A stretch of DNA of 64,000 bases. It comes from Heterostelium album PN500 (lineage: Eukaryota > Evosea > Eumycetozoa > Acytosteliales > Acytosteliaceae). The notes beneath the pieces were generated by a model. It saw only the letters and a program-made list of their open reading frames with translations. It made no database searches and was not told the DNA's origin. Location of the stretch: the NCBI RefSeq assembly GCF_000004825.1, contig NW_008805064.1:682001-746000 (forward strand). Reading direction: 5' to 3'. Shown here piece by piece: positions 1 to 54,669 of the stretch (position 1 is its first letter; the number at the start of each line of letters is the position of its first letter). A program made the translations under genes and the position numbers.

Positions 1-3000
1 CTAGATTCCAGATGTCATTGTTAGTCCGATCTTTATTATTTGTCATCGGAACAAACTATAGGAATTCCTATTTCATCAAGTTACTCTCTGATATTATCCA
101 ATTTGTGTATCCATTCATTTTATATAAATTCGTAGACTTTATCAATGATCCCGATGAGCCTTTTTACAAAGGAATCATCTATTCATTCGTTTTATTACTT
201 GCCTATGTTTTAACTACAATACTCAACAAGTATTATGAATTTCGAGTAAACAGAACAGGATTTAATGTAAAAACTATGTTGGTTAATTCAATATTTAATA
301 AATCTGTAAGTATTAAACTAAAATATTTATTATATCCTTTTCTAATATTAATATATTTTTTTTTTAATAGTTAAAACTATCAAACTTTGCAGGTGAAGGC
401 AAAACTAAAGGAGAGATTATCAATCTATGCAATTCCGATGTTGCAATGATTCAAACCATATTTATATATGGTCAAGAAACACTATCTCTACCATTTCAAA
501 TTATCATTGCTTTGGCACTTCTTATTAAACTACTCGGGTGGAGTCCATTGATTGGATTCTCGACACTACTCATTTTCACACCTGGTGGTTCTAAAGTAGC
601 TAAACTTCAGTATGGTGCTTCACATAATGTCAATATGAAACGTGAGAAACGTACATCTCAAATGACAGAAACAATAAGTGTAACTATTTTTATAAAAACA
701 AACTATTAACATAAAAACTAACTCTTTTAATATATAGTCTATCAAGTTTATTAAATTAAATGGATGGATTGAAATGATGCAAGAAAAGATAATGTTTTTA
801 AGAAATGCGGAAGTTCAAGCACAGAAAAAGATGAATTATATTACTTCACTTCTGTATTTGATTCATTTCCTTACACCAGATGCTGTTACATTGGTTACCT
901 ATTGTACATATTCATTACTTGGTAATGAATTAAAGTTGAATGTAATCATGTCTTCATTATCATTATTCTTTATTTTGAAATATCCAATTTCGTAAGTTAT
1001 TATATTTATTTTTAATGATATTATGGATCGATTATTAATATCTATTTAATAAACTATAATTAGAAATGTACCACATTTAGTTGCTGGATTAATGATGGCA
1101 AAATCATCAGTTGGTAGAATACAAAAATTCCTCTTGATACCAGAGGTTGAGAGACCAACCCCATGCTATGATGGAGTGTTACACTATGGTAAAATGAATA
1201 GCCAGCCACATATCAAAGCAAATAATTTGTCATTGGTAATTAAAAATGGTACATTCCAATGGAGCTCAAAGGATTTCGATGATCAAACCGATGATTCATC
1301 TAAATCCATCTCACTCACCGAACAACCGAAAACACCTTTGATCTCATCGGTGCCGGATGAATCGACAAACGCAACAATGGAAATCAAAAAGATGTTTAGA
1401 TTACAAGATATCAATTTGAAATTAGCAAAGAATTCATTGTCTATTGTCATTGGTACTGTGGGAAGTGGTAAGAGTAGTCTACTATCTGCAATTCTTGGCG
1501 ATATGAAGATGAAAGATGGAGGATCGTTATCTGTAGATTCAAATATTGGTTATGTTTGCCAGACTTCATGGATTCTGAATGCTACACTTCGTGAGAATAT
1601 CTTGTTTGGCAAGGAGATGGTTGATACAAAGTATCAGAGTATTCTTAGGCAATGTGCATTGTTACCGGATATCGAGATACTACCTGCCGGTGACCAAACT
1701 GAGATTGGTGAGAAAGGTATCAATCTCTCTGGTGGACAAAAGATGAGAGTTGCAATAGCAAGAGCAATCTATCATGAAGCGAACCTCTATCTATTGGATG
1801 ACCCACTGGCTGCACTTGACTATGATGTTGCGGTTCATATATTCAACAATGCCATCATCCCACTTGCAAAGAGATCTACTGTGTTGTTGGTCACACATCA
1901 ATTGTTCCCATTGGAACAATCCGATCAAATTATAACAATGCAGAATGGACAAATCAACAGTATCGTTACATTCGATGAGTTACCAAAGGAATCTTTGGAG
2001 ATCTATCAAATAAAACAAGAGCAACAACAGCCACTTGAACAACAAGATGAAAACAATCCAACAGAAAAGAAAGAAGCAGTTGTTACAACGAACAATACAA
2101 AATCTAAAATAGTTGAAGATGAAGATAGGAATGTAGGAATGGTTTCAATTAAAGAGTATATAGATTATCTTAAACATCTGGGACCATACTACCTAGTGAT
2201 ATCCTGTACTCTGCCATTCGTTCCACCTTTACTATCGATTCTATCAAACTACTGGCTGACTCTCTGGACAACCAAATGGGTCGAGGGAGAATCATCACTT
2301 GGCTATTATCTTGGAATCTACTTTGCCTTGTCAGTGATGACATCGATTACCATTTTCTTCCAAGTCCTCATGAATATCTTTGGTGGATTGAGGGCATCTT
2401 CTGTTCTCCATCACAAGGCATTAAATAGAGTGATGCATGCACCTATCCAATTCTTTGAAAGCAATCCTGCTGGCCGAATTATCAACAGATTCAGCTCTGA
2501 TATTGCGAAGCTCGACTATGCATTACCGGTTCATTTTGGTGAAGTTAGAAATTCATTTTGTTTCTCCATTGTCATGGTTGTCCTATTTTCTGTGGCATCT
2601 CCCTATATCCTCATCCTTCTCGTTCCAATACTCGTTAGCTTCTACTATATCAAAAACTATTTCCTAAATAATGTAAGAGAGTTACAGAGATTGGATCAAC
2701 TCTCACAATCACCATTAGTTTCTCACATCAATGAATCACTCAATGGAATATCAACAATCCGTTCATTCCAAAGCATAGAAAGATTCCAATTGAAACTCAG
2801 TAATCATCTCGATACCAACATTTCAATTGCATTCTCAGAGTTTAGTGTATCACAATGGGCATTCTTGAGAATCGGTATGTTGTGCTCTATGTTTGTACTG
2901 GGAACAGGACTATCTGCAACATTCCTCAAACACACATTCTCTGGAGCTGTCATTGTTCTTGCACTCACTTACACTGTTCAACTCTCACAGCGACTGACAA

Positions 3001-3812
3001 TATTTTTCAGATTCTTTACATCGGTTGAAACTGAAATGAACAGTGTACAGAGAGTGTTTCATTACTCTGATAATCTACCACAGGAATCAACGTATGCCAC
3101 AAACATTCCAAGTGACTGGCCATCCAATGGAAAAGTCGAATTCATCAACTACTCAATGAAATATAGAGAAGATCTTTCAAACTCTTTGAATAATATCAAC
3201 CTTTCCATCGAAGCCGGAACCAAGATTGGTATTGTAGGTCGTACTGGTGCCGGTAAAAGTTCACTTCTCTTGGGACTGTTCCGTCTGAATGAAGCGGCCA
3301 CCGGTAAGATTGAAATCGATCGGCTCGATATCTCATTGATAGGTCTATCGGACTTGAGATCTCGTCTCACAATCATTCCACAAGATCCGATTATGTTCAA
3401 CGGAACACTGAGATACAACCTGGATCCATATGGACAATTCACCGATCAAGAGATATGGGATATTCTCGAACGAATCCAAATTAAAGAGACAATAGAATCG
3501 TTGGACATACTGGTCTCTGAGGACGGATCGAATTTCTCGGTTGGACAAAGACAATTGTTCTGTTTGGTTAGAGCATTGCTAAAGAAATCAAAGATTATTG
3601 CACTGGATGAAGCAACTGCATCGGTAGATCAAACAGCAGACGCACTCATTCAACAGATCATCAGAGAACAATTCGAAAACTCCACAGTCATTACCATTGC
3701 ACATCGTCTCAACACTGTCGCTGACTATGATATCCTCGTCGAGATGTCAGAAGGTAGAATCAAGCGTATCGGTAAACCATCTGACATCATCGAACAAATT
3801 GATATTAATTAA
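1..3812 (+). CDS. ABC transporter, ABCC (MRP-type) subfamily, 5' partial
   Basis: Exons are 1-305, 371-679, 738-991 and 1064-3812; phases join cleanly. The reading frame is open to the window edge and the first ATG (12) lies inside the first membrane domain, so the start is outside. Seen: end of TMD1, then NBD1 with Walker A GTVGSGKSS (about 1452), signature LSGGQ (about 1725) and Walker B LLDDPLAALD (about 1794); a charged Gln-rich linker; TMD2; NBD2 with Walker A GRTGAGKSS (about 3237), signature SVGQRQ and Walker B ALDEATASVD (about 3600). NBD1 has Asp where NBD2 has the catalytic Glu, the usual ABCC asymmetry. Family knowledge: ABCC full transporters export organic anions and conjugates across plasma or vacuolar membranes. 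The substrate cannot be read from the sequence. An AATAAA lies at 3859 after the stop. Family call is firm; the exact orthologue is not. Confidence 0.95.
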
Positions 3813-9720: not shown

Positions 9721-10636
9721 ACTGATAAATAATAATAATTCTAGGTAAAATTTTTTTTAAAAAAAAAAATACATATATTTTTAAAACAACAACAAACAAC
9801 CAACAAAACACCATTAGTCATTTTAAACCAAACAAACCAACCAACCTAACCAAACAATACAACTAAATTTAATTATAAACCAATTTAAAATAAAATTGAA
9901 ATAAAAAAAAAAACAAATAAAAATTTATTTATTTATATAAAGATATGTACTTAAACCATTTATTATTTATATATATATAAACTAAACTATCGTTGTAAAA
10001 TGTAAAATTAAAATAAATCAGAAATCAACATCGATGTTGGTTTGTAAAACGATCAGACTTTTTTCGTAAAAAGTTGTCCCCAAATTTAACCGGCAAAATT
10101 TTAAAAAAAAACAAAGATATCTCTCTTTGAATTAAGAATATACCAAACCAAAGATACACATTCATGATAGGAGTTTAAATATTAATATAGAACTGAATGA
10201 GAAATTTTGTTGACAATCATTTACTTTAACTATTTATAGAATTGTTAATTTGAACAAAAGAGTCAAATCATTAAAAAAAAACTTTATATTGATTAACTCT
10301 TTATCATCTCGTTAGCTTGTTTCTTTTATTTTCAGTATTAGTTTATTAAAAACGTGAACCTTCTTCACAAACATAGCTCTACTGTTATCCACCAAAAAAT
10401 TTTAAAAATTTGAAAATTTGTTTCCGTTATTTTTTTTTTTGTCAGATTAAAATTTGGGCGGGTTGTAGATTTTAGGTTGAACTATAGTTTTTTAATTATA
10501 TTAAACTTATTGATCAAATATTTTCTAATTATCATTGTTTTTTTATATACTTATAAATTAAAGAAATAAAATAAAATAATCAACAAAATTGTTTAATTTT
10601 ACAAATAAAAAAGGATTTATAAATATAGAAAATAAG
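9721..10636. other. intergenic, kinase to ndc80
   Basis: About 915 nt of A/T-rich DNA with the kinase 3' end and the ndc80 promoter. There is a small perfect inverted repeat ACTTTTT/AAAAAGT near 10055. No gene or RNA recognised. Confidence 0.65.
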
Positions 10637-12905
10637 ATGACATCAAGACCAGTATTTAGTGCATTGAATAACAGTCAATATGGAAATCAAAACAATGGTA
10701 CTAATAATCAATATAATATAAATAATGGCATTGGTATGATGTCCACAAATGGAAAGCAACAACCAGCAATTGGTTTGTCTTCAACCTTGAAACAACAACA
10801 ACAACAACAACAGCAACAACAGTTACAACTACAACAGCAACAACAATTACAACAACAGCAACAACAGCAACAACAAATGATGTCAATGAGTGTATTTTCA
10901 ACACCAATGCAAACACCAAAGGTATTTCAGACGCCAGCCTCAAAGCTATCGATTGCACCCATTCCAATGGCATCACTCAACTCTTCCATTTCATCGGCAC
11001 CATCGTCAGTCCGTTCAACTATCACAGGAGTACCACAATCGACAACCAATCGTTTCAGTGCCGCTCCACTAAATCAGCCAAAGATGTCACTCGGATATAC
11101 AGGCATGTCTAACAACAACAAAAAATCAATTCCATCCATGTCAATACGTCCATCTTCTGCACGTGTAGAATCACGACCCATCTCTGACAAAGAATTCCAG
11201 AAACAGTGTACCAATCGAATCGCCACATTCCTCACATCCAACAGCTATCCAAACCAAATCACACCAAAGACGCTCAAGTCGCCATCCGGCAAGGAGTTCT
11301 ACGCCATGGCTGAATTCATGTTCCTCCAAATCGATCCCACCTTTAAATTCACAGCTAAACAAGACGATGAATTGATAGCTTTTTTCAAGATCATTCGTTA
11401 TCCATTCCCCATTTCCAAACGTAATTTGACATCAGTCGGAACACCACACACCTGGCAACATTTGTTGGCTGCACTCTCATGGCTGGTCGAGGTCATTGAG
11501 TATGACAACGCCACCCAAGTCGACCCTGAAAATGACCAGATGCAAGTAGACGAAGATCCATTCCTCCGCGAGTTCAACCGCCACGTTCTCCATTTCTATA
11601 CCACCGGCTACATGCATGGAAACGAAGAGGATCAGGTCGACCTTTTGCTCCAAGAGTATCACGGTGGCAGATCGCGTCAGCTCGAGGCAGAGATTGAGGA
11701 GATGAATGAGAAAATCACCAGTCAGAATACACACATGGAGGAGATTAGAAACGAACCAAACATCACCGGTGAGCTTCGTGAGAAGATTCAGTCGACCAAT
11801 GAGGATATTGTCAAGTTCCAGGAACATGTTGATCGTGTAAACAGTGGAAGATCGTCGTTGGAGCACAGCATTGAGACTCACACCGCACAGTCGTCGGAGC
11901 TTCAAAACAAGTTGGAGCGATTGCAACAACAGAAATCGTCACTCGAAGAGATCATTGCCGAGCAACAAAAGAGTTCGGTCGATGCTAAGATTCTCAACCA
12001 GCGTCGTGTCCAACTCCAGGAGGACATCAGCAAGTCACAGAAAGAGAGAAATCGTTTGGAACGATCCAAACAAGAGAAACTCACAGAGATCATCAACATC
12101 ATCTCAACCATCGATGGTTACATCACTCAGTACAACGAGTACGCTAGAAACCTCAATCTCCTCAAGGCAGACGGTGACGACCAAACAAACACACGTAACT
12201 ACCAAATCAATTTCGAACACAACAACGGTGATGTTACAATAACAGACTTGAAGAAAGTAAAGGTAAATATCATAAACACAACTTTCAATTCTAAAAAATA
12301 TTTAAACGAACTGGTTTGTTTTCTATTATAATTATCACTATAATTTAGAAAAACTTGAAATTATATATTGAAGAACAATACGAAAAGATAAATACAACCG
12401 AAGAAGAAACAAATAACAAGAGAAATGAAATGAAACATTTAGAGGATGATTTTGCTGACAAGCAACAACAAAAGAAGAGATCGGAACAAAAGTTTTCAAC
12501 AATGGAAAGTACTTGTAAAAGAGAAAAAGAAGTATGTATTATTAAATTATTATTATATGCAAAATATAGATTAACATTTTTAAACTAATTTGATAATTTA
12601 TTTATTTGAAAAAATAGAAACTAGATAAAGAGTTATCAGTGTTGATGGATAAAGTTGAAAAGAGACAATCGTCAAACAAAGAAATGAAAGAGTTCCTTAG
12701 AAATGATCTTGATCAGAAATCAGTTAGTTTAGATCAATCAAAAGAGCATGTGCAGTTACAAAAGGAATACATGAGTAAATTGGTAGTGGATTTGAAGAGT
12801 AAAGCTTTGACATTCTTGAATCTTACCACTCAACACCACGATAATTTGGCTGTTAAAATCAGATCTGTTTTGGATCACATGAACCAACATTGTAAATCAA
12901 CTTAA
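10637..12905 (+). CDS. ndc80: kinetochore protein Ndc80 (Hec1)
   Basis: Exons 10637-12262, 12349-12531, 12618-12905; 698 aa. The start is the ATG at 10637; the frame continues upstream but only from a TTG. Seen: a long Ser/Pro-rich N-terminal tail broken by a poly-Gln tract (about residues 52-80); the calponin-homology head (about 178-310) with FLTSNSYPNQ, IRYPFPISKRNL and the near-invariant VGTPHTWQHLLAALSWL; then long coiled coil to the C-terminus. Family knowledge: Ndc80 with Nuf2, Spc24 and Spc25 forms the outer-kinetochore complex that holds microtubule plus ends; the CH head and basic tail contact the microtubule. The poly-Gln insert lengthens the tail compared with animal Hec1. The identification is secure. 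Confidence 0.96.
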
Positions 12906-30014: not shown

Positions 30015-32142
30015 ATGTTTGAAAATACATATTTACCCTCAATATTATGGGGATTGGTTGTATTATTAATAGCATTTATTTTAATATATCCATTTAAATT
30101 TTTAAGTATAATTTCAAGATTAAGGTATGTTTGTAATAAAAGAATTAAAAAGAGACTGGAAAAAATGTTGGACATTAATAAATTAATATTTGTGTTTTAC
30201 TTTATTTCTCTTCTAGGATAATAATAGAAAATCTTCCTTTGATTATACAGAAAAGACACAAGATATTTCCATATATGTATTATTTAAAAGGGAATGCAAA
30301 TGTATTCTCTTTGATTGATAAATTGCCGATGGTAAGATCGAAACTACCACGGCTTATCGATGAACTTCCAATAGTGGCACCACATCTCGAGCTCATAATG
30401 CACGACCACAACTTTGACAAGCTAGCACCACACATCGACTTGATTCTCGATAATCTACCGAAACTGACACCGTATCTCGATGTTATGCTTAGACATATCG
30501 ATTCGATACTTCCGCACTTTGAGCTATTCATCAAGTATTTCGACAAGTTGGAACCATACATTCCCGATCTCGCTCCGTACTTTGATGATCTCTGTCAGTA
30601 TATAACTATATTATCGCCGCATCTGGATACTCTTTTACCGAATTGTCGGGCGATGCTGCCTTATTTCTCGAGACTCTCACCGTATATTCCTCGGTTGCTA
30701 CCGAACACCTATTTAATACAACCGTACTCCAGACAGTTGATACCACATATCGACGTGTTACTTCCGCACATCGATGTTCTCCTGCCGTATCTACCGACGT
30801 TGCAACCGGTGATGCCAGAGATCATTGCCAATATCGATGTGCTGCTGCTGCACATCAATGAGATCACCGCCAACATGGAATCGGTACTGCCATACACCCG
30901 ATTGATACTGCCAAAGATCCGTCTGATATCGCCATACATCCCACAGCTGATGCCGCACCTGAAGCTACTGAGTCCGCACATGGAACTGCTAATAAAAAAC
31001 TGTGATCACATCGTTCCATTCATTCCAACGCTGATCCCTCACGTGAAAACACTGATGCCCTATATCAAGATTCTGTTGCCACGCTCCAAGACACTGTTGG
31101 AGTCGGCACACATCATTCAGCCACGAGCAGCAGTACTACTACCCTACAGTCCAAAGCTGCTGCCCTACATCGATATCCTAATGCCTCACAGCTCACTGTT
31201 GATCTTCCATTCACACAAGCTGATACCACTGGTCAACCGAATCTATCCTTACATCCCAGCGCTGATGCCACACTTTCATCTGCTGATCAATCATATCGAC
31301 GAGTTGCTGGAGAGTAAATTCTCATTGCTTCCATATATCGATGATATACTTCCACACATACACACAATCATTCCCTATACAAGTATACTGCTGCCATACA
31401 GTGAGAAGTTGGCACCTCACCTCGGCTATCTCCCCAAGTATTCATCGATACTGTTACCATATTCTAAATTCCTTCTTCCACACATCGATGAACTGTCAAG
31501 ACACATGCACGAGCTCTCACCCTATCTACCAGCGATATTCCCATATCTTGGCCAGCTCATGGATAGAATCGAACAAATAATACCACAACTCGACTATCTC
31601 GCACCTTATTTACAATATATAATACCAAATCTAGATGAACTTTTACCAAATATTGGAAATGTAATGTATTACAAATTAACTACACTAAGAATAAGAATAT
31701 CAAACAAAAATGATTATTAATATTTTTTAAAAAGGTATTGGATAGAAATAGATCGATAGTTCCTTACATACAAGATTATATATATTCAGCACAGGCTGCT
31801 AGAATGAACTACGGGTCGATTCAAACTGAAAGAAATCAATCGATGAAACATATACCACCACCACCACCACCACCGCTAGCAGCAGCAGCACCAGCATCTC
31901 TTCCTCAACCAGTGATCAACCATTACTCTATGAATACCTATAAACTAGATCCATCGATGCCTCCAGCCACTCTTCCTATGTATCACAAGAAAACACTTCG
32001 TGAGAGAATCAAAGATAAATTTAGAAAACATCACGACAAAGATGAAGACGATATAGCTGCACTAAATGATCTAGATGAGTTCAATCACAGACAAAACTTA
32101 ATCTCTATTCATAATAGTAGAGCAAGATCACCAACCCAATAA
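30015..32142 (+). CDS. membrane-anchored protein with 64 tandem Pro heptads
   Basis: Exons 30015-30124, 30217-31660, 31735-32142; 653 aa. Seen: an N-terminal membrane segment (residues about 6-33, LWGLVVLLIAFILIYPF) followed by Arg/Lys, so most of the protein should be cytoplasmic. From residue 69 to 518 the whole sequence parses into 64 consecutive seven-residue units (one unit has nine) with consensus [LI]-x-P-[HY]-[ILFS]-[DEP]-x; examples are LLPHIDV, LAPYFDD, LSPYIPR, LMPHLKL. Two or three weaker units start exon 3, then a poly-Pro/Ala linker (PPPPPPPLAAAAPAS) and a charged tail (LRERIKDKFRKHHDKDEDD). Proline at position 3 of nearly every heptad rules out an ordinary coiled coil. I do not recognise the family; a solenoid or rod-like tether is inference. 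The repeat region is almost entirely one exon ending exactly at a unit boundary. Confidence 0.9.
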
Positions 32143-39117: not shown

Positions 39118-41179
39118 ATGGGCATGTCAATCAAACAACACACACAGCAAATAGAAGGCAGCAGCAACAGCAATGGGAATAGCAGCACAGAGTGGATAAT
39201 ACAATCGACAACTTCACCATTCCAAAATAATACAAATAAAAGATTTTCATTAGGTAGGCAACAACAACTACAAGACGAAGACTATAATCAACAACAACAA
39301 CAACAGGAGGGAGGAATAATAATAGGAGCAGCAGGTTTTGTTGACATTATCATTGAATATCCAACAATAGTTCACAACAATTGCGGAAGACGAAGACTAT
39401 ACGCATCATCACCATCATATTTTTACAATCCACCACCACCATCATCATCATCATCATCAAACACTAACCCCATTTCCAAACCATATTTTTCTCATTTCAA
39501 ACGATCAGATCCATACATGGAGCACCAAAATCATTATTCACCTCCCCAGTCACCTCTCAGTGTATCTGACCCGATGACTGGGTACTTTCAAAATCTACAA
39601 TCACCCGACATCAACATTAGAAAATCAGCTATCGAAAATATCATTACAACTCTGTCGAACCCAGACAACGAGAAACTTCTGAGAAGCTATATAAACAACA
39701 TCGTAGTGTTAGCTACAGAGTCTCCATTCGATGAAATTACAGAGTCTTTTTCAAATTTATTAAAATCTATACAGGTAAACTTTGATCTTTTTAACAAGCT
39801 GCTATTAGTGCTAAAAGAAACATTAATAATAACCATTCACTTTATTTTAGGATAAATATCATATACCAAAACAAAAAACAACATCGTTTATAAATGAAAC
39901 ACAATTACCACCATTAAATACGAATGATGAACTTACAAAGAGATTGTTCCAAGAAGTGTTTTTACAATCGGGTCGAGTAAACCATATCGTTCGTCTGTTG
40001 GGTTGGCACCCACAATATCTGGAGAGATTTCTGTCGAGTTACAATAAAGTGATGAGAGATCCAGGACCTCTTCCACTACCTTGGAGAAATTATATTGGTA
40101 TTTTATCGGCAGCACGTTACAACTGCACCTATCTGGTGTCACTTCAGGAGCATGAGTTCCTCAAGAACAACGGTGATCCCAAATGGCTACAGGGTATCGA
40201 TCATATTCCTCAGAAGCTAAAGAACCTTCTGAAAATTGTACAATTAATGGCACACCAACCCTGGCTGCTGCCCAATCTCGACCTGGAATACCTAGTGAAA
40301 GGACAGGACGCATGGTCCATAGCGGAATTGGTTCAAGCAATGATTTTAATTTGCACTTTTCTCTCGCTGTCTGGCTTTGTGTTTTCCTGTGGAATTCTAC
40401 CAGAGTACGGTCTGTCGCAGGAGGAGAGACCTCAGTTTTCACTGAATGACAGTGACTGCGAAGTCGAAGACAGCTCAGCATCGGAAAACACCATTAAGGT
40501 CATGGAGTTGCTCATGAAGAAACGCTCACAGGAGGAAGACGAAGAGGACCAGGATATCGATCGTCAACAAGAGTTTCACAATGCAGGAATGGAGTCTGGC
40601 CCACCTTTCGAGACGGCCAGCAGCAGTAGTGGCGGCGGTGGCGATTCCGACACGGGAATGATCGACCTCGAACGATACATCGGCAACTATACAATGTCTC
40701 ACACCGACTTTGACGTGTCATCCCGTGAGTACACAATCTTCTCCATTCAGGACTACAGTTGGAAGGAGCACGGTTACGAGTTGGTCAGTCGAATCTTCCC
40801 GGATGCCGCACCACTGCTCGACGAAGAATTCAACTTCGTGTACACAATGACCTATTACCGATTTAATAACAGTACCGATATCGATACATTACCATTCAGA
40901 CGTGCCGTTTGGTACTATGTACAGCGTGTTAAGGGAATGTGTCACGACGACTACAACTATCAGGAGGTAAACATGTTCCTTAACCGTAATCTCAAGTACT
41001 ATGTAAAGAAGGCAGTTTGTTTCCCAGACAACATCACCAAAGTCGATTATTCAAAATTAGGTTTTGATTTGAAACCGGATGAAAAGTGTCATCTGGCATT
41101 ATTAGCTGTATGTTCTCATAAACAAGCAGCTCTTTTATATGGATTATATACAGTTATGTGTTACCAAAATCGTAGATAG
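39118..41179 (+). CDS. sesn: sestrin
   Basis: Exons 39118-39774 and 39851-41179; 661 aa, longer than animal sestrins (about 480-550) because of a Gln/Asn/Ser/Pro-rich N-terminus. Seen: N-terminal alkylhydroperoxidase-like half with LGWHPQYLERFL, GPLPLPWRNYIGI, ARYNCTYLV and PQKLKNL; an acidic linker; C-terminal half with DYSWKEHGYELVSRIFPDA, FRRAVWYYV, DDYNYQEVN and KQAALLYGLY. Family knowledge: sestrins restrain TORC1 through GATOR2 and protect against oxidative stress. Residues Cys311 and Tyr313 match human Sesn2 Cys125/Tyr127, but the place of His132 is Gln318. In the leucine pocket, matches to Thr374, Thr386, Arg390 and Glu451 are kept, while Thr377 is Arg556 and Trp444 is Gly623 (alignment by eye). 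The identification is secure; activity may differ from the human protein. Confidence 0.95.
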
Positions 41180-44207: not shown

Positions 44208-45861
44208 ATGAACGATAGATATCAAATAATAAAGAGTATAATTATTATACCGATTCTAGTATTACTAGTGGATGCAACTATGCAGTATAATGATGATGAT
44301 CCTCTATCAGATCCAAAGCCAAATCCAAATGTAATCAAGAAATATAATTCAATCATGGACTCGAATTGGGTATTGAGATCATCATATCTTGTATTATGTA
44401 AGAAGATATATTTATAATTAATAACATTAAAAGCTATAGCAAGCTAACAATTAATTAATACTATCTTTTGTATAATTAGTAATGCAAGCAGGATTTAGTT
44501 TATTAGAATCAGGAATGGTTAGAGCAAAGAATACAAAAAATATATTAGTAAAAGTATGTTGTTTGATTGGATTGGATTAACAAACAACAAACAAAACAAA
44601 TTATTTATATTATTATTATTATTCTTAGAATTTAATTACAACAGCACTGGGTGCGATTATATTCTTTGGAATTGGATATAGTCTATCGTTTGACAGTGGA
44701 AAGAGTTATTCCAATCCACTGATAGCATGTTGTAGTTTCTTTAGTTTGGAGGAAGGCGATTACTATGTTTGGGTTTCGAAATGGGCATTCTCATCGATTG
44801 CCTGTACTATTATCAATGGATCGGTCTCTGAACGAACCAAGATCGTTGCCTATTTGATTTTGAATACGGTGGTGCCTGGAATCATATACCCGCTTGCGGC
44901 ACATTGGATTTGGAACGAAGGTGGCTGGCTCTATCAACTGGGCGTCGTCGACTATGGCGGTGGCATTGCTGTGCACGTACTCGGAGGAACTATCGGGCTG
45001 GTCGGAACGATGCTACTCGGTCCGCGACTCGGCAAATTCGATCCGGAGACGGGCAAGCCGCTGGTGCTGAGCGAGCACAACATAGTGTTGTCATCGATCG
45101 GCACGCTCTTCCTGTGGTTCTCGTGGTACGGACAGCACCCGGTGTTGTACGGTATGGATTTGAACAAGAGTCGTATCGCTTCGCGTGGCGCTATCAATAC
45201 TACGCTGTCTGGATCTATCAGTATGGTCACATCGTTTGTGATAACAGTGGTATCGACGAAACGCTACGATTTGAAGATATGTATAAACGGACTGCTTGCC
45301 GGGTTCGTTGCATCGTCGGCGTCGGCAGGTTTCATCGAGCCGTACTACAGTATCATCGTTGGAGTGGTGTCGTCATTCATCTTTATTGGATTCTCAAAGT
45401 TGTTGTTGCGCTACCAAATCGACGATCCCTGCCAGTCGACATCGGTTCATTTCGCATGTGGAATATGGGGTGCTGTTTCCTGTGGATTGTTTAGCGATTC
45501 TTCACTGCTCGATGAAGTGTACAAGAATCGTGAGAATCATCAATCTATAATCGAAGGTGTATGTATAGATAGCTAGATGACTAGTAGATAGATGGATATT
45601 TTTACAAATATATTTGAATCAACTAACATCCAATCCAATCTCATTATATTCAAAAACAAAAAAAAAAACAAATAGGATTTTAAATTATTAGTTATACAAT
45701 TAATTGGAGTATCAGCAACTATTATATGGTGTACGATATTGGCATATGTAGTTTTTAAGATTTTAAAGAAATATTCATTGTTGAGAGTTGATTCCGATAT
45801 TGAATTAACTGGATTCGATAATGCACATCATGGTGGTGCTGCTTATAATTATAGAAGTTAG
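44208..45861 (+). CDS. amt: ammonium transporter (Amt/Mep/Rh family)
   Basis: Exons 44208-44397, 44480-44553, 44629-45558, 45676-45861; 459 aa, normal length. Seen: N-terminal hydrophobic segment; QAGFSLLESGMVRAKNTKNIL, the Amt signature of helix 1-2; WAFSSIACTIINGSVSERT; PLAAHWIWNEGGWL; the first pore His in AVHVLGGTIGLVGTMLLGPR; and the second pore His in VHFACGIWGAVSCGLF. The family's twin-His pair is therefore intact. The 74-nt exon 2 is easily missed. Family knowledge: Amt proteins move ammonium across membranes as a trimer of 11-TM subunits; in dictyostelids ammonia is also a developmental signal and the three Amt paralogues influence slug behaviour. Which paralogue this is cannot be told by eye. 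Confidence 0.95.
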
Positions 45862-52681: not shown

Positions 52682-54669
52682 TTAATTTATTCCTGCTGAT
52701 AAATCATTTGATAAAGCAATATTAAATCTTATTTGTCCTTCTGAGTTGTTTGCAAACTCACCATCATCTACAGTCTGTTTGTTCAAGCTAAAGCAACTTT
52801 GTTTTGGTAAACGGTTGTAATCACTGTATTTACCGATTTCATAACCTGGTAAAGTTTCAACAAATATACAATAGTTACCGGATGGAACGTTGTCAAAGGT
52901 ATATCCGTCATAGTCAGATTTTGTAATCTGACTCATGATTATTTGATCAGAGTCTGCATCATAGAGACTGACCTCCACACCGGCCAAGTATTCCTCGTCA
53001 GTCTCATGGAATCCGTTGTTGTCACCAGAATCATTCCAAGCGAATCCACCAATTGAATACGACTGTCTCTCATAGACAGCGAGATTCAATCTAACTTCAC
53101 CTTCTCCATTGACCACAAAATTATTTAAGTTTAGATCGTTCAACTGAATACATTGTCTTCCATCCTGGGCGAACTTGTTGAATGGTGATTCTGGCGCAAT
53201 CATATAGTTTCCGTTGATTTGTATTCTGCAACACACTTCTCCTGGTAGCAAGAATAATTTCCATCCACTATACTCATCTTTGATTGCAAATTCACTCATG
53301 AACTGATTTCCTTGGAATACAGTGACGTTGAAACCATCAACATATGGTTCACCCTCATCACGAACACCGTTTCTGTTGGAATCCACCCAGACATATCCAC
53401 CAACTAAGAAACCAATTTCATCTGGTCCTCCAAGGAAGGGTCCAGTTGTTGTATCTGTAAGAGGTAAGCCGGTACCAGAGGTCATTCCCGTGGTAGGTAA
53501 GACTGTAATTTCAGCTGTAAGTGGAATGATTCCTGTTGTGGTAGTCAGTTCTCCTGTTCTGGTTGTAGCAGATCTGGTTGTGAAAGATATTGATGTAGTG
53601 GATGTAGTGGATGTAGAAATTGTTGATGTTCCCGTTGTGAAAATGTTGGGTGGTAAGCAAACTGGATGACGATTGATAACAAAACACTTAGTATTGATAT
53701 TGCAGTCAACGAATGTACATAGATTGATACATGTTGGCTTAAGTTTTTTATTGTCACCTCCATGGCAACAAACTTCATCTGGTCCACATTTCTTAAAGGT
53801 ACATTCATCTATTCCTGGCGGTTGTGTGGAAATAGGAATACATGCGGCAGTACCAGAGATTACCGCACACTTGTATCCTTTCTTACATCTCACACCATCA
53901 CATTTATCTCTTGGTGGAATATAATCTGGACAACTTCCAAGCAAACAAAGAGGTTTTCCATGTACCGATGCACAAATGTAATTGTGTGGACAATAGAAAT
54001 TCGAGCAAACTCCATACCAACCAGAGCTTGTCCATGTGCCTGTGGTCGACGATGAAGTGTTCATACATGTAGGAATACCATTTTGGTTTACACATTGCAA
54101 TCCTCCATAGCACACCACTCCATTACATACGTTTCCACCAGTTGTTGTTCCAGTAGAAATCGTACCTGACGTTGGATTTGGTCTGATACAAGTTGCCAAT
54201 CCATTTATTTGGACACAAATTAGACCATTCAGGCATTTAACATCCTTACATACTAATGGACCAGAAGTACTTGAAGTGCCTGAGGAACCAGAGGAGGAGG
54301 ATACACCTGATGTGGAGGTTCCTGGTTTTACACATGTGGCAACACCATTTTGATTTACACAAACCAAACCTCCAAAGCATCTAAAGTTGGCACATACTAA
54401 ATCTGATCCTGATGATGAGGATGATGATGATGATGATGAAATCGTTGATCCAGATGATGATGTTCTAACACAAACTCCCATACCATTTTCTTCTACACAT
54501 TGCATACCGCCAAGGCAAACCATTCGATCACATATATTCCATGATCTTATACCTTTAATTGTTTGTTTTTTTTTGGTAAGTAAACTATTTTATATTCAAA
54601 TAAAAAAATGTTATAATGTTATTTACCTTTTAAAGTTATTAATAGTAATAAAACTATTAAATATTTCAT
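52682..54669 (-). CDS. colossin-like Cys-rich secreted protein
   Basis: Minus-strand exons 54669-54627 and 54552-52682; 637 aa. The tiny first exon supplies a signal peptide (MKYLIVLLLLITLK) joined in phase to GIRSWNICD. Seen: about seven to eight Cys-rich follistatin-N-like modules (pattern C-x(4)-C-x-G-x-x-C-x(5)-G-x-x-x-C, e.g. FRCFGGLVCVNQNGVATC), separated by Ser/Thr/Gly linkers; a Thr/Ser-rich stalk; two SdrD-like beta-sandwich repeats near the C-terminus (GYVWVDSNRNGVRDEGEP and FAWNDSGDNNGFHETDEE, each with a calcium-site-like D-x-N/D-x-D/N pattern). No C-terminal TM is obvious. Family knowledge: dictyostelid colossins and spore-coat proteins combine such modules. It is probably secreted or deposited in extracellular matrix. 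Confidence 0.88.

Follow-up and report, generated by a model that had tools for sequence, protein, structure and literature searches.

The gene at positions 30015–32142 of the window, the 64,000-nucleotide stretch of DNA analysed here, raises the question of which structure a protein adopts that is largely built of proline-bearing heptads, and what such a structure may serve for. The gene is on the plus strand, as are all of its features described below, and consists of three exons coding for 653 amino acids. Exon 1 (30015..30124) encodes residues 1–36 and part of residue 37 and ends at the donor GTATGT; exon 2 (30217..31660) is one open frame; exon 3 (31735..32142) contains the two last heptads, a linker, the tail and the stop codon. 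Intron 1 is bounded by GTATGT..TCTTCTAG and intron 2 (31661..31734) by GTAATG..TTAAAAAG. Splice sites were deduced from the DNA as the most canonical-looking option among many open splice combinations listed. The splice of intron 2 has independent support because the heptad register carries on across it.

The repeat begins with four N-terminal heptads (residues 69–96; 30311..30394), evident on reading the sequence, and a nine-residue unit (residues 97–105; 30395..30421), the only place at which the register is interrupted from residue 69 through 532. Unit counts and shuffles define the following 59 heptads in perfect register (residues 106–518; 30422..31660), and counting on in register adds the last two in exon 3 (residues 519–532; 31735..31776). 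Residues 106–532, referred to here as the rod, thus comprise 61 heptads with zero insertions or deletions. The 64 units at residues 69–518, one of them with nine residues, that had been counted in the initial annotation are exact, and units 519–532 extend them by two. Position 1 of the heptad is hydrophobic (L/I/M/V/F) in 61 of 61 units (L 40, I 16, M 2, V 2, F 1), position 2 in 47 and position 5 in 48 (42 and 44, respectively, without counting A, C and W). Position 3 is proline in 45 units; the other 16 have a charged residue there (10 units), A, L or F (four) or Q or N (two). Position 4 is Y, H or N in 50 units (Y 24, H 18, N 8). The 427 residues of the rod include only three glycines. Prolines number 56, with 45 at position 3, 10 at position 6 and one elsewhere; in nine units, positions 3 and 6 are both proline.

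The regular register claimed initially is far beyond that of shuffled sequences. The period-7 power of proline is 27.8 versus a maximum of 8.0 in 10,000 shuffles, and hydrophobic residues in the same phase run through 61 consecutive units, versus at most 17 in 20,000 shuffles. When the two halves were scored against each other as profiles, shift 0 was chosen by all 55 four-unit windows. In four MAFFT alignments of separate rod segments, each of the 49 gap runs, and each of the 18 internal ones, corresponded to whole heptads. No order above the heptad was seen among 24 lags scanned; a z as high as the maximum of 2.0 also occurred in 41% of permutations.

The 61 units are all different, with mean pairwise identities of 26% in amino acids and 41% in nucleotides; the nearest DNA pair reaches 76%. 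Position 3 uses all four proline codons, and synonymous codons are mixed at both positions counted. Tandem Repeats Finder reports a single array in the rod, with 2.6 copies of 21 bp, its remaining three rows falling in the linker. As synonymous codons are mixed and DNA units so divergent, it is in the protein that the heptad pattern is maintained, which supports the selection, instead of recent slippage, proposed at the outset; together with the single short array, these data rule out a fresh DNA repeat. The third-position G+C of the rod (30422–31776) is 0.50; the gene's two end portions have 0.29 and 0.26, and eight other frames of the window have values from 0.28 to 0.53.

The rod is preceded by a transmembrane segment at about residues 7–29 (30033..30101), with Kyte-Doolittle values of up to 2.57 in 19-residue windows. 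It is flanked by E3 before and by K28, R35 and R37 after it or at its end. By the positive-inside rule this charge distribution suggests an N-out/C-in orientation, so that the rod would be cytosolic. C-terminal to the rod, reading of the sequence reveals a PPPPPPPLAAAAPASLPQP linker (residues 559–577; 31855..31911), and a basic, weakly amphipathic segment is found in the tail (residues 602–620; 31984..32040), having nine K/R and three D/E with an acidic stretch next to it. The moment in 18-residue windows beginning at 606, 608 and 609 is 0.41–0.47; with the acidic stretch included, the net charge of these windows is only −1 to +1.

The initial annotation had held that proline at the third position argues against a coiled coil. 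This objection fails because positions 1, 2 and 5 repeat at 3.5 residues with proline opposite. The power of rod hydrophobicity peaks at that period (79.3 versus 1.9 at 3.6 residues), as in coiled coils and unlike free surface helices. If the rod is an alpha-helix, positions 1, 5 and 2 share one face, and position 3, with 45 of the 56 prolines, is opposite. On the Fauchere-Pliska scale, with prolines excluded from the means, this position is 180 degrees away from the middle of the hydrophobic face, on the Kyte-Doolittle scale 169 degrees; position 6, with its 10 prolines, is 117–128 degrees away. The face opposite the hydrophobic side is where a helix best tolerates proline. Proline occupies f when positions 5 and 1 are taken as a and d; in the scheme of the designed barrel apCC-Hex-LLIA, where positions 1, 2 and 5 correspond to g, a and d, it occupies b. 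In a helix, its main position is outward in either assignment. Other parts of the earlier interpretation (register, selection, an N-terminal membrane anchor, a Pro/Ala linker, a charged tail and no family found) were supported, the anchor, linker and tail by hydropathy windows and sequence reading.

In the broad sense of unbroken heptads with a hydrophobic stripe at 3.5 residues, the rod has the pattern of a coiled coil. When a generic a/d coiled-coil sequence was compared with the unit profile, its score was negative in each of the seven registers, so the rod does not belong to the canonical two-stranded kind. The 3.5-residue period also bears on whether the rod might spread along the surface of a membrane or lipid droplet as an amphipathic helix. 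Such a helix would explain the broad hydrophobic face flanked by Y/H/N, and the Kyte-Doolittle values beyond residue 60, which peak at 1.33, under the membrane-spanning value, would agree with it. However, surface-lying helices usually follow a period of 3.6–3.67, and at 3.5 we regard this placement as quite unlikely.

Despite proline at the outer position in 45 of 61 units, AlphaFold2 still predicts helix, at low confidence. Exon 2 as a single sequence gave many helices, interrupted, with a mean pLDDT of 40.4. With a four-row alignment of the protein's own segments, helices were predicted at 2–32 and 36–99 of 112 positions (31 and 64 residues) with modest confidence (mean pLDDT 62.5); a Foldseek search with this model yielded no match in the PDB at E-values up to 10. 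The models weakly support an alpha-helix for the rod, and as modelled the middle of the protein is probably one very long helix with prolines along its outer side. Low pLDDT and 56 prolines in 427 residues would also be expected of a rod that is largely flexible or molten, as other proline-rich repeats are. This is very doubtful for a sequence that is rich in L and I and holds its register through 61 units, and in which the residues we chose as disorder-promoting make up 46%, versus 69% in the tail.

Searches of the organism's own genome (a 32.9-Mb assembly of 39 contigs, the window being on contig 3) with the rod, the heptad consensus and the tail revealed no paralogue besides the gene itself; a tail match at E 4.5e-4 lies in a frame that is WD-repeat-like by eye and was discarded as unrelated. 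The whole protein had six Pfam matches, every one below cut-off, and zero matches to NCBIfam and, by sequence, to the PDB. Seven segments searched separately against Pfam retrieved weak matches to five families, with a best E of 0.0012; a cut-off was given for a single family and was not reached. HEAT_EF3_GNC1 (PF24984) scored 24.7 bits, below its cut-off of 27, and HEAT_EZ matched in two of the seven segments (best E 0.0074, cut-off not shown). At E up to 10, the listed Pfam matches include no MCE family. In the open-licence papers listed, neither the title nor the beginning of the abstract mentions a repeat of this kind. Judged by these comparisons, the protein resembles no described family convincingly. 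The initial annotation likewise knew no named family and had considered a confident match to a described repeat family as refuting its view; none was encountered in the Pfam, NCBIfam, PHROGs and PDB libraries searched.

PHROGs gave a match to a phage tail tape measure family (PHROG 305, E 5.8e-7, two stretches), and tblastn found 211 phage records at E up to 10 (best E 0.01), the best 20 of the 211 all being tape measure genes; repeats and composition can inflate both scores. Like the rod, tape measure proteins have hydrophobic helices bearing proline. In two of them the hydrophobic period is strongest at 3.6–3.67 in windows from residues 300 and 400, and at 3.5, as in the rod, in the window from residue 200. 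Unlike in the rod, their period-7 proline signal is not strong (at most 2.9). Nor is the locus that of a phage tail: the gene is spliced and has cellular neighbours, e.g. NDC80 and sestrin. We take the match as a likeness of composition and helix type, which is not the same as proven unrelatedness.

Profiles of the rod were also compared with PDB chains. The profile built from seven segments (A3) matched designed six-helix barrels best, with E-values of 1.6e-4 and 3.2e-4 that are sums of weak repeated matches (single-stretch i-Evalues of 180 or more) and to which composition contributes; wFAP1.1 (0.066) and DHD15 (0.23) came next. With other segment boundaries (A1), importin-5 was first (E 0.52), one barrel (8qad) had E 2.5 and the other (9r1o) was absent. 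LxPxL helices are common to HEAT repeats and this protein. The weak importin and HEAT matches and the splitting of the single-sequence AlphaFold2 model into many helices would fit a HEAT-like solenoid or folded-back bundle, in which short helices lie side by side. A HEAT unit comprises two helices and about 35–40 residues, but at lags of 5–6 units there is no excess (z 0.0 and −0.1), and periodicity above seven residues was not found at all. With three glycines and zero register breaks in 427 residues, and the score of HEAT_EF3_GNC1 under its cut-off, a solenoid appears unlikely.

The matched barrels, sc-apCC-6 (PDB 8qad, 9r1o), share with the rod heptads of the form LLxxIxx that are hydrophobic at positions 1, 2 and 5, and the rod has the extra hydrophobic position beside the core that distinguishes alpha-helical barrels (position 2, 47 of 61 units). 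Unlike the rod, they are designed proteins, their matched fragments have heptads without proline (one match extends into a P-containing loop), alanine stands where the heptad protein has D or P, and their helices are about four heptads long. A barrel fragment scored above zero against the unit profile in one register (1.9), compared with 14.7 for the rod, from which this profile was made.

Starting from the observed anatomy, register and face pattern, we infer self-association, rod length, topology and a tether role. The single N-terminal membrane segment would anchor the protein, and the long cytosolic rod would be an amphipathic alpha-helix running almost without interruption through 61 heptads, with the hydrophobic side chains of positions 1, 2 and 5 along one face and, in most heptads, proline opposite. 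The outward prolines may bend the helix gently, always to the same side, and several chains, or one folded back, could pack their hydrophobic faces into a left-handed superhelix that forms a spacer of roughly 39–64 nm. Docking on a second membrane or a partner protein might be provided by the poly-proline linker together with the basic segment near the C-terminus. We tentatively prefer this membrane-anchored, cytosolic, self-associating, proline-kinked helical rod as a 39–64 nm spacer between membrane and partner, giving it a chance somewhat short of even; its role between membranes is a reasoned guess. Against it stand the low confidence of both AlphaFold2 models, the nine units with prolines at 3 and 6, which may break the helix, the Foldseek search without PDB match and the summing of the barrel E-values from weak stretches.

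The dimensions come from a geometry calculation with an assumed bend angle, 100 degrees per residue and one bend per heptad on one face. Bends of 5–26 degrees resulted in a left-handed superhelix with a radius of 7–15 Å and a pitch of 178–70 Å. The calculated span of the 427 residues is 64 nm for a straight helix and falls to 57 nm with a bend of 10 degrees per heptad and to 39 nm with one of 26 degrees. By description only, the arrangement of membrane segment, long spacer and basic C-terminus is similar to that of the ER–plasma membrane tether Ist2, which according to PMC12617493 has a membrane domain, a long cytosolic spacer and a C-terminal polybasic motif. In contrast to the heptad protein, Ist2 is described there as having a scramblase for its membrane domain and a spacer without ordered structure.

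The three hydrophobic positions per heptad, arranged as in designed barrels that enclose a lumen, also raise the possibility that the chains form a hydrophobic tube, an alpha-helical barrel whose lumen carries lipids like the needle of bacterial Mce1. This mycobacterial lipid transporter is described in PMC9882608 as an inner-membrane-anchored complex with long kinked helices around a hydrophobic tunnel, the kinked helical repeats forming a left-handed superhelix with a pitch of about 75 Å. For the rod, the assumed bend of 26 degrees per heptad yields a radius of 14.5 Å and a pitch of 70 Å, but the other bends tried give 95–178 Å. A Nocardioides genome yielded 18 Mce matches; eight of them were inspected, as stretches cut at fixed residue numbers that possibly include non-needle parts. 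In seven of the eight, as in the rod, the hydrophobic signal is stronger at 3.5 than at 3.6 and 3.67; yet prolines are few (4–8 per stretch of up to 180 residues), with a period-7 power of at most 1.9. Mce proteins have an MCE domain, absent from the listed Pfam matches of the heptad protein. As no inspected Mce stretch has proline heptads, any likeness would be one of working, not of descent. A lipid-carrying barrel seems very unlikely to us, and we see a slim chance at best, argued by analogy, for a eukaryotic lipid conduit in the form of a homo-oligomeric membrane-anchored helical tube with a hydrophobic lumen of tens of nanometres, convergent with the Mce needle.

If our preferred self-associating rod is correct, outward proline in three quarters of the heptads would set the curvature of a long bundle rather than break the helix. 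With a lumen, the rod would be a simple eukaryotic lipid tube; without one, a ruler-like spacer with its length encoded by heptad number. Either would provide a natural template for designers of helical barrels.

Look-alike repeats were found in viral, prokaryotic and plasmid DNA. Two protein scans of viral contigs matched 2 and 21 stretches, and a consensus scan of prokaryotic genomes matched 594; none was confirmed as a relative. A five-unit DNA pattern was present in 28 viral and at least 115 prokaryotic loci, some of them in open frames. When each of the 143 loci is represented by its lowest repeat identity at 21 or 42 bp, the median is 0.96, and 142 loci reach 0.75 or more, compared with 0.42–0.43 for the whole length of the rod; the remaining locus (0.65) has stop codons. 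Save for that locus, we took them as recent DNA tandem repeats. In several bacterial contigs, near-identical 21-bp repeats read as LTPHSSL-like heptads in one frame.

Among plasmids there were 22 records at E up to 10, two of which were inspected and rejected: in Streptomyces sp. f51 (E 8e-39) the match is a satellite with a 21-bp unit that translates as LCNNIDT, and in lp17 of Borreliella afzelii (E 4e-4) it is a 21-bp repeat, both lacking proline. In the 60.7-kb Streptomyces plasmid NZ_CP149799.1, a 32-kb stretch is annotated as a single hypothetical protein. The inspected portions of positions 3580–24815 are a 21-bp satellite, and these 21 kb are stop-free in two frames on the annotated strand and one on the opposite strand. 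The satellite frame is likely a repeat or assembly artefact.

Pfam matches were obtained for five of ten neighbouring frames scanned (window 1053–54589), namely an ABC transporter (1053–3809), NDC80 (10580–12328), sestrin (39851–41176), an ammonium transporter (44629–45573) and, on the minus strand, an SdrD B-like domain protein (52685–54589). These genes give no hint of the function of the heptad protein. A frame of 220 amino acids (44832–45494) is nested in that of the ammonium transporter on the same strand and is probably a by-product of the latter's higher G+C.
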